NCBI GenBank assembly: GCA_945829225.1
Contig: CALZTY010000005.1
Location: 1 to 64,000, forward strand
DNA from: an uncultured Bacteroidales bacterium
Lineage (GTDB): Bacteria; Bacteroidota; Bacteroidia; Bacteroidales; Muribaculaceae
Direction of reading: 5' to 3'
Length of the DNA stretch: 64,000 nt
Within the stretch, counting starts at the first letter, position 1. Each line of letters starts with the position of its first letter. The notes below the pieces were generated by a model. That model had not been told where the DNA came from. It saw nothing but the letters and a program-made list of their open reading frames with translations, and made no database searches. Of the stretch, positions 47,282 through 47,646 are shown one piece after another. The position numbers were made by a program, and so were the translations under genes.

Positions 47282-47310
47282 AAAAAAAGGAAAAATTTGC
47301 CAACTTTTCC
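47282..47310 (-). terminator. Terminator at the end of the candidate RNA
   Basis: On the minus strand GGAAAAG (47310-47304) pairs with TTTTTCC (47295-47289) around an 8-nt loop and is followed by seven T (47288-47282). It lies upstream of the nuoA -7 box, so it would shield nuoA from transcription coming from above. Confidence 0.6.
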
Positions 47311-47507
47311 CCTCCCTTAAAAAATTAACACCACGACCCATCTCGAGTCATGGCGCTCACAGTGTGTTGAAAGAGTCAAAATCTTATTCTAATAGTCAAG
47401 CCCTTATTTCAGCCCCCCTTCGGGGGAGCTAAAACTATCAGGGCGGACAAAAAACAACTTTTTACATATCGAAACTACAGCTATTGGAATAGAAAAAACT
47501 ACCTAAC
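47282..47507 (-). ncRNA. Candidate small structured RNA upstream of nuoA
   Basis: The 481-nt gap between nuoA and the next gene is explained on the minus strand as an RNA gene. A -7 box TAACTTTG (47519-47512) would start it near 47507. A hairpin of 13 bp (47435-47423 with 47418-47406, loop CGAA) and a hairpin of about 10 bp (47353-47344 with 47340-47331) follow. Each contains several G-U pairs that would be A-C mismatches on the plus strand, pointing to a minus-strand RNA. It ends with a 7-bp hairpin (47310-47304 with 47295-47289) and T7. I see no protein frame. The family is not recognised; 6S RNA could not be shown. A -33 box is lacking. Confidence 0.5.
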
Positions 47508-47511
47508 GCCG

Positions 47512-47519
47512 CAAAGTTA
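47512..47519 (-). promoter_or_regulatory. -7 box of the candidate RNA
   Basis: TAACTTTG on the minus strand fits TAnnTTTG and is identical to the -7 boxes of prfA and the acyltransferase gene. No -33 TTTG lies at the expected distance, so the call rests on this box and the structure downstream. Confidence 0.45.
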
Positions 47520-47646
47520 AGCACTTTTAAACGCTTTTGTATACTTTTTAGCGTTAATTTATGTTAATTGCTTGCATTTTGTCATATTGTAAGCGAAATT
47601 TATCACCCATTGCCGTCAAACTAACTTTTAGCTTGCTTTTTGCTAC

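Follow-up and report, generated by a model that had tools for sequence, protein, structure and literature searches.

The gap upstream of nuoA in the window (the whole 64,000-nucleotide stretch of DNA analysed here) is best explained as the site of a stand-alone small RNA (sRNA) gene, most likely encoding a trans-acting antisense RNA, and we put the probability of this explanation as a whole at about 0.65. That the locus is a real and independent RNA gene is very probable; that the RNA acts by base pairing is favoured more cautiously. The gene, with a predicted transcript of ~189 nt on the minus strand (47319..47507), is also present in seven congeneric genomes, which together with the window gives eight copies in total, and sequence comparison supports the gene itself, its conservation, its independence from the neighbouring genes and the anatomy of its promoter. 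To our knowledge, nearly all trans-acting sRNAs known in Bacteroidetes come from Bacteroides; the gene described here would represent a separate and well-delimited sRNA family from a lineage of related gut bacteria, most of them uncultured. Structured RNAs of human microbiomes have reportedly been surveyed broadly (PMC8040213).

The gap is bounded by the start of nuoA (47203, minus strand; Pfam Oxidored_q4) and by a divergent sugar nucleotidyltransferase gene (47685, plus strand; NTP_transf_4 with hexapeptide repeats). The 5' end of the RNA is predicted at 47507 from the conserved spacing to TAnCTTTGC and from an invariant GTTAGG start, and the minus-strand sequence from this position opens with GTTAGGTAGTTTTTTCTATT. 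The first 20 nt are followed, on the same strand, by a less conserved 5' stretch recognised in the alignment (CCAAUAG-UGU-GUUUC; 47468..47487), by a central bulged hairpin in the predicted fold (47383..47457), within which lies an apical 13-bp stem with a CGAA loop (47406..47435), and by an intrinsic terminator consisting of a GC-rich hairpin and then AAUUUUUU (47319..47358). This GC-rich hairpin runs into AATTTTTT (~47358-47319, minus strand). Further downstream, a weaker hairpin with T7 (47282..47316, minus strand) also folds and may be a second, back-up terminator; it is absent from the orthologues. Because the hairpin at 47357-47327 is the sole terminator-like site within the gap, and because counterpart terminators are found at the matching place in two relatives (G034 and G064), the RNA most likely ends at 47319 rather than at 47282.

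A preliminary description of this DNA had reported a -7 box, the 13-bp CGAA hairpin, a second hairpin and the T7 hairpin on the minus strand, all of which are present, while the 3' boundary that it drew at 47282, on the unconserved T7 hairpin, is probably 37 nt too far. Its suggestion that selection has acted on a minus-strand RNA is borne out by the predicted folds of 47282-47507: the minus strand folds with -75.4 kcal/mol (z -4.57), and none of 200 shuffles was as stable, against -43.3 kcal/mol (z -1.88) for the plus strand. Since the minus strand folds far better than the plus strand relative to shuffled sequences, the argument for a minus-strand RNA holds.

Conservation is strongest in the 5' sequence and less in the stems. 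The first 20 nt, GUUAGGUAGUUUUUUCUAUU (47488..47507, minus strand), do not differ among seven of the eight copies and form a weak 5-bp hairpin, GGUAG/CUAUU, with an exposed U6 loop. They are near-identical in the eighth copy, G070, where the U-tract is one base shorter (U5) and CUGUU stands instead of CUAUU, a change from U-A to U-G that keeps the hairpin. According to the fold predictions for the eight members, the U-tract is mostly unpaired, and positions 1-20 are on average 50-65% unpaired, with the weak hairpin and the open loop. The predicted RNAs range in length from 98 nt (G017) to 189 nt (the window copy), and their fold z-scores from -1.4 to -5.3. The shape of the apical stem is retained in five members (the window, G034, G064, G032 and G017), with the variants UUUUAGC..GCUGAAA, UUUCAGC..GCUGAAA and UUAGC..GCUAA, and is altered in G014; the outer stems differ in sequence between members and can still pair, and G026 has an unrelated 3' half that likewise closes with a terminator hairpin. 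Covariation in the stems is thin, with 3' parts comparable in seven of the eight members and lengths unequal. Conservation in close relatives, one of the two points on which the preliminary description had let its proposal stand or fall, was found, although more in the 5' sequence than in the stems that it had emphasised. The fixed 5' block against a variable remainder in eight natural variants marks the probable functional part and provides a direct experimental handle.

The distribution of the gene was examined with several searches. A BLAST comparison of the gap with 60 relatives recovered five genomes of the same genus, in which chiefly the first ~60 bases match, and a scan of 84,980 species genomes for the exact 20-mer gave matches in six contigs only, all of them Bacteroidales MAGs: the five relatives found by BLAST and one new genome, G064 (L091). 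The 20-mer was absent from every Bacteroides genome among those scanned. The eighth member, G070, was detected with a sequence profile of the promoter and 5' end (E 5.5e-17) in 49 same-genus genomes and a sample of 178 genomes of the family; all other profile matches were at least ten orders of magnitude weaker and fell mainly on the generic promoter part. There is one match in the window's own genome and one strong profile match per genome. An order-wide pattern search allowing 2 mismatches returned chance matches only, no more than its reversed control. Judged from these searches, the sRNA family is narrowly distributed. The carriers cluster in a NuoA tree (2 changes, against 7.3 with shuffled labels), many branches of which are weak, and the deposited record of one member places it in Muribaculaceae. 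Among seven of these genomes, the region preceding nuoA cannot be aligned, so that the background conservation is nil, and the conservation of the RNA is thus not a by-product of close kinship.

The genes around the RNA, named from their protein sequences where there was no Pfam call, differ between genomes. Downstream of it lie nuoA in the window alone, ung in G034, a DUF349-like gene in G017, recX in G032, purF in G064, an acetyl-CoA hydrolase gene in G026 and G014, and an lptF-like gene in G070; in four genomes (G032, G064, G026 and G014) the RNA is convergent on this next gene. As the neighbours change in this way, the RNA is best regarded as a stand-alone sRNA and not as a nuo leader, and the comparison indicates that its gene is independent of the neighbouring energy-metabolism operon. 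A 5' leader or attenuator of the nuo operon, one of the two roles considered in the preliminary description, might have been suspected in the window, where the RNA ends ~80 nt above the -7 box of nuoA on the same strand. However, nuoA adjoins the RNA in none of the other seven genomes, and in the window it has its own -7 box and is separated from the RNA by a terminator; we consider this role extremely unlikely. The other role, that of a stand-alone regulator, and the proposal of an undescribed small structured RNA both agree with the eight orthologues, the dedicated promoter, the shuffled neighbours and the lack of an Rfam match. The RNA had also been characterised as divergent from the sugar-nucleotide gene, which is true of four of the eight members (the window, G034, G017 and G032) and not of the remaining four. 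These divergent pairs would suit a DNA regulatory island that serves the sugar nucleotidyltransferase gene and contains no functional RNA, but the blocks of G064, G026 and G070 adjoin other genes with their internal spacing unchanged, and the conserved block extends from the predicted transcription start to terminators at its other end, which makes such an island very unlikely. In G026, a HigB-type toxin gene (Pfam HigB_toxin) and then a helix-turn-helix gene adjoin the sRNA (L005:515-1242).

Two further explanations accept the RNA and assign it another role. The covariance search against Rfam (release 15) recommended in the preliminary description gave no match in the gap at the gathering level and none that was meaningful up to E 10; a CRISPR-DR34 match (E 1.1) was discarded as a chance similarity to the GC-rich hairpin. 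A drifted Bacteroidales 6S RNA (RF00013), or another known housekeeping RNA, would be consistent with the length of 98-189 nt, which is in the 6S size range, with the presumably strong promoter and with the long bulged hairpin of the window copy. However, a search with the 6S covariance model, up to E 10 in the gap and over the whole of the window's own genome, gave nothing. In the predicted folds of the short members G032 and G017 (98-101 nt), no 6S-type closing stem joins the 5' and 3' ends; the 5' end is largely unpaired or folds into a small hairpin by itself, and the 3' end lies in the terminator. A 6S or housekeeping identity is thus highly improbable. It is equally conceivable that a protein binds the conserved 5' block, in which case the RNA would be a decoy or scaffold whose U-loop hairpin binds an RNA-binding protein, e.g., one of the RRM-type Rbp, and titrates or recruits it, pairing with mRNA being unneeded. 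Exposure of the U6 loop in nearly all predictions, persistence of the small stem in G070, target searches without signal (see below) and the binding of RbpB to the 5' part of FopS sRNAs in Bacteroides (PMC11697453) are all compatible with this, whereas 20 invariant bases including the stem exceed the needs of a U-loop binder; on balance we find a purely protein-binding RNA rather unlikely.

We class the stand-alone sRNA as a family that is new but of a type already known; it differs in part from the published descriptions of GibS and FopS and has no Rfam match. GibS (BTnc035) of Bacteroides thetaiotaomicron is an intergenic RNA of ~145 nt with a highly conserved 5' region (1-38), hairpins and an intrinsic terminator, and it is transcribed from a promoter of motif PM2 (PMC7366714). 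By this description, the new RNA resembles GibS in its intergenic location, conserved 5' region, hairpins and intrinsic terminator, but differs in its canonical TAnCTTTG box and in its neighbours. The FopS sRNAs of Bacteroidaceae consist of a 5' stretch and then a terminator hairpin, have a canonical sigma-ABfr promoter and a seed in the 5' part, and occur in 12-15 copies per genome (PMC11697453); as far as their description goes, the new RNA shares the 5' stretch followed by a terminator hairpin and the canonical promoter, but is single copy. The layout common to GibS and FopS, a conserved 5' segment followed by one or more hairpins and an intrinsic terminator, was seen in the alignment and folds of all eight members, and by this layout the RNA may work in a similar way, its membership in either family remaining a candidate one.

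From these features we infer that the RNA is transcribed, that it pairs in trans and that it has a regulator. Transcription would start at ~47507 on the minus strand from a dedicated promoter (a candidate operator palindrome, the TTAAC repeats and TAnCTTTGC) and stop at the intrinsic terminator at ~47319. The working part would be the 5' 20-40 nt, including the small hairpin that exposes the U6 loop, and the hairpins 3' of it would stabilise the RNA and terminate the transcript. Like GibS and FopS in Bacteroides, the RNA would most likely act in trans, its 5' end pairing with mRNAs at A-rich translation start regions, and a factor bound to the palindrome would set the amount of the RNA.

The regulon of the sRNA is a lead and not a result. 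With at most one mismatch from AAACTACCTAAC allowed, the eight carriers have 43 sites, 17 of which are 16-41 nt upstream of an ATG; these 17 include sites at glyA and gdhA (two each), at a glnA-like gene, at buk and at pta, the genes being named from the protein starts. Eight non-carriers, with -7 boxes set aside, have 3 of 25 such sites within 70 nt above an ATG, one of them within 45 nt. An ambitious reading would have the RNA act as a master sRNA, specific to this lineage, over fermentation and amino-acid metabolism. A dedicated regulator would drive it from the palindrome, and its GUUAGGUAGUUUUUU end would pair with sites resembling AAACTACCTAAC that lie 15-45 nt ahead of the start codon in glyA, gdhA, glnA-like, buk/ptb, pta and tkt genes; such sites were seen in several sRNA-bearing genomes, and we consider this reading quite unlikely. 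In 582 start regions of the window's own genome, the motif was not enriched over permuted 12-mers, with a count of 34 at three mismatches against 30.9 +/- 7.5 for the permutations. In the same genome, 18 of 60 shuffled seeds gave duplex energies with start regions as good as those of the 5' block. The carrier G064 showed a pairing excess (0 of 60 shuffles as good), and the sRNA-less G031 was nearly equal (2 of 40). A metabolic regulon defined by seed complementarity was therefore rejected, as composition-matched controls removed most of the signal; the apparent regulon of the own genome is explained by start regions that are A/C-rich and G-poor.

Several individual sites were observed in the course of this search. 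The butyrate kinase leader of G032 contains a 15-nt perfect complement of the sRNA 5' end, 31 nt above the ATG; the site is near-perfect in G070, weaker in G017 and absent in G064 (L183:1163-1195 and L231), and because its quality varies or it is missing among carriers, butyrate kinase was rejected as a conserved target. Orthologue pairs of gdhA (L259, L265) and glyA (L254, L272) carry near-complements of the sRNA 5' end ~30 nt above the start codon, which have no significance once composition is controlled. Degenerate CTAAC/CCTAAT runs, G-poor and C/T/A-rich, immediately precede start codons in several genomes within the genus (L244, L258, L316, L323), and these runs confound the prediction of sRNA targets.

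The upstream region is arranged with the same precision in all eight copies, the spacing of the TTAAC repeats and TAnCTTTGC being fixed within one base. In the window, the -7 box TAACTTTG occupies 47512..47519 (minus strand), with TAnCTTTGC at -12/-13 in eight of eight copies, and two invariant TTAAC repeats on the same strand lie upstream of it, repeat 1 (-60; 47563..47567) at -59/-60 and repeat 2 (-50; 47553..47557) at -49/-50, again in all eight. Above these is a 23-bp imperfect palindrome, CTTACAATATGACAAAATGCAAG on the minus strand (47571..47593; -86 to -64), a candidate operator; a palindrome close to CTTACAnATTGnCAAAATGTAAG is found at -86/-87 in seven of the eight orthologues, and the window copy is itself the sole match with at most 2 mismatches across 855 kb of its own genome. 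The palindrome thus looks specific to the sRNA promoter and would be bound by a regulator, and the promoter is strong and probably regulated. The palindrome offers a second experimental handle, on the regulator of the sRNA. The TTAAC repeats were rejected as a specific operator since similar repeats precede other strong promoters of the family, some of them of tRNA genes; from these occurrences, the repeats may be an upstream element common to strong promoters of Bacteroidales. Throughout the family, TTAAC repeats, often in the form TTAAC-N5-TTAAC, recur at many promoters 45-60 nt upstream of a TAnnTTTG box, and several of these promoters stand immediately ahead of tRNA genes (loci L100-L151).
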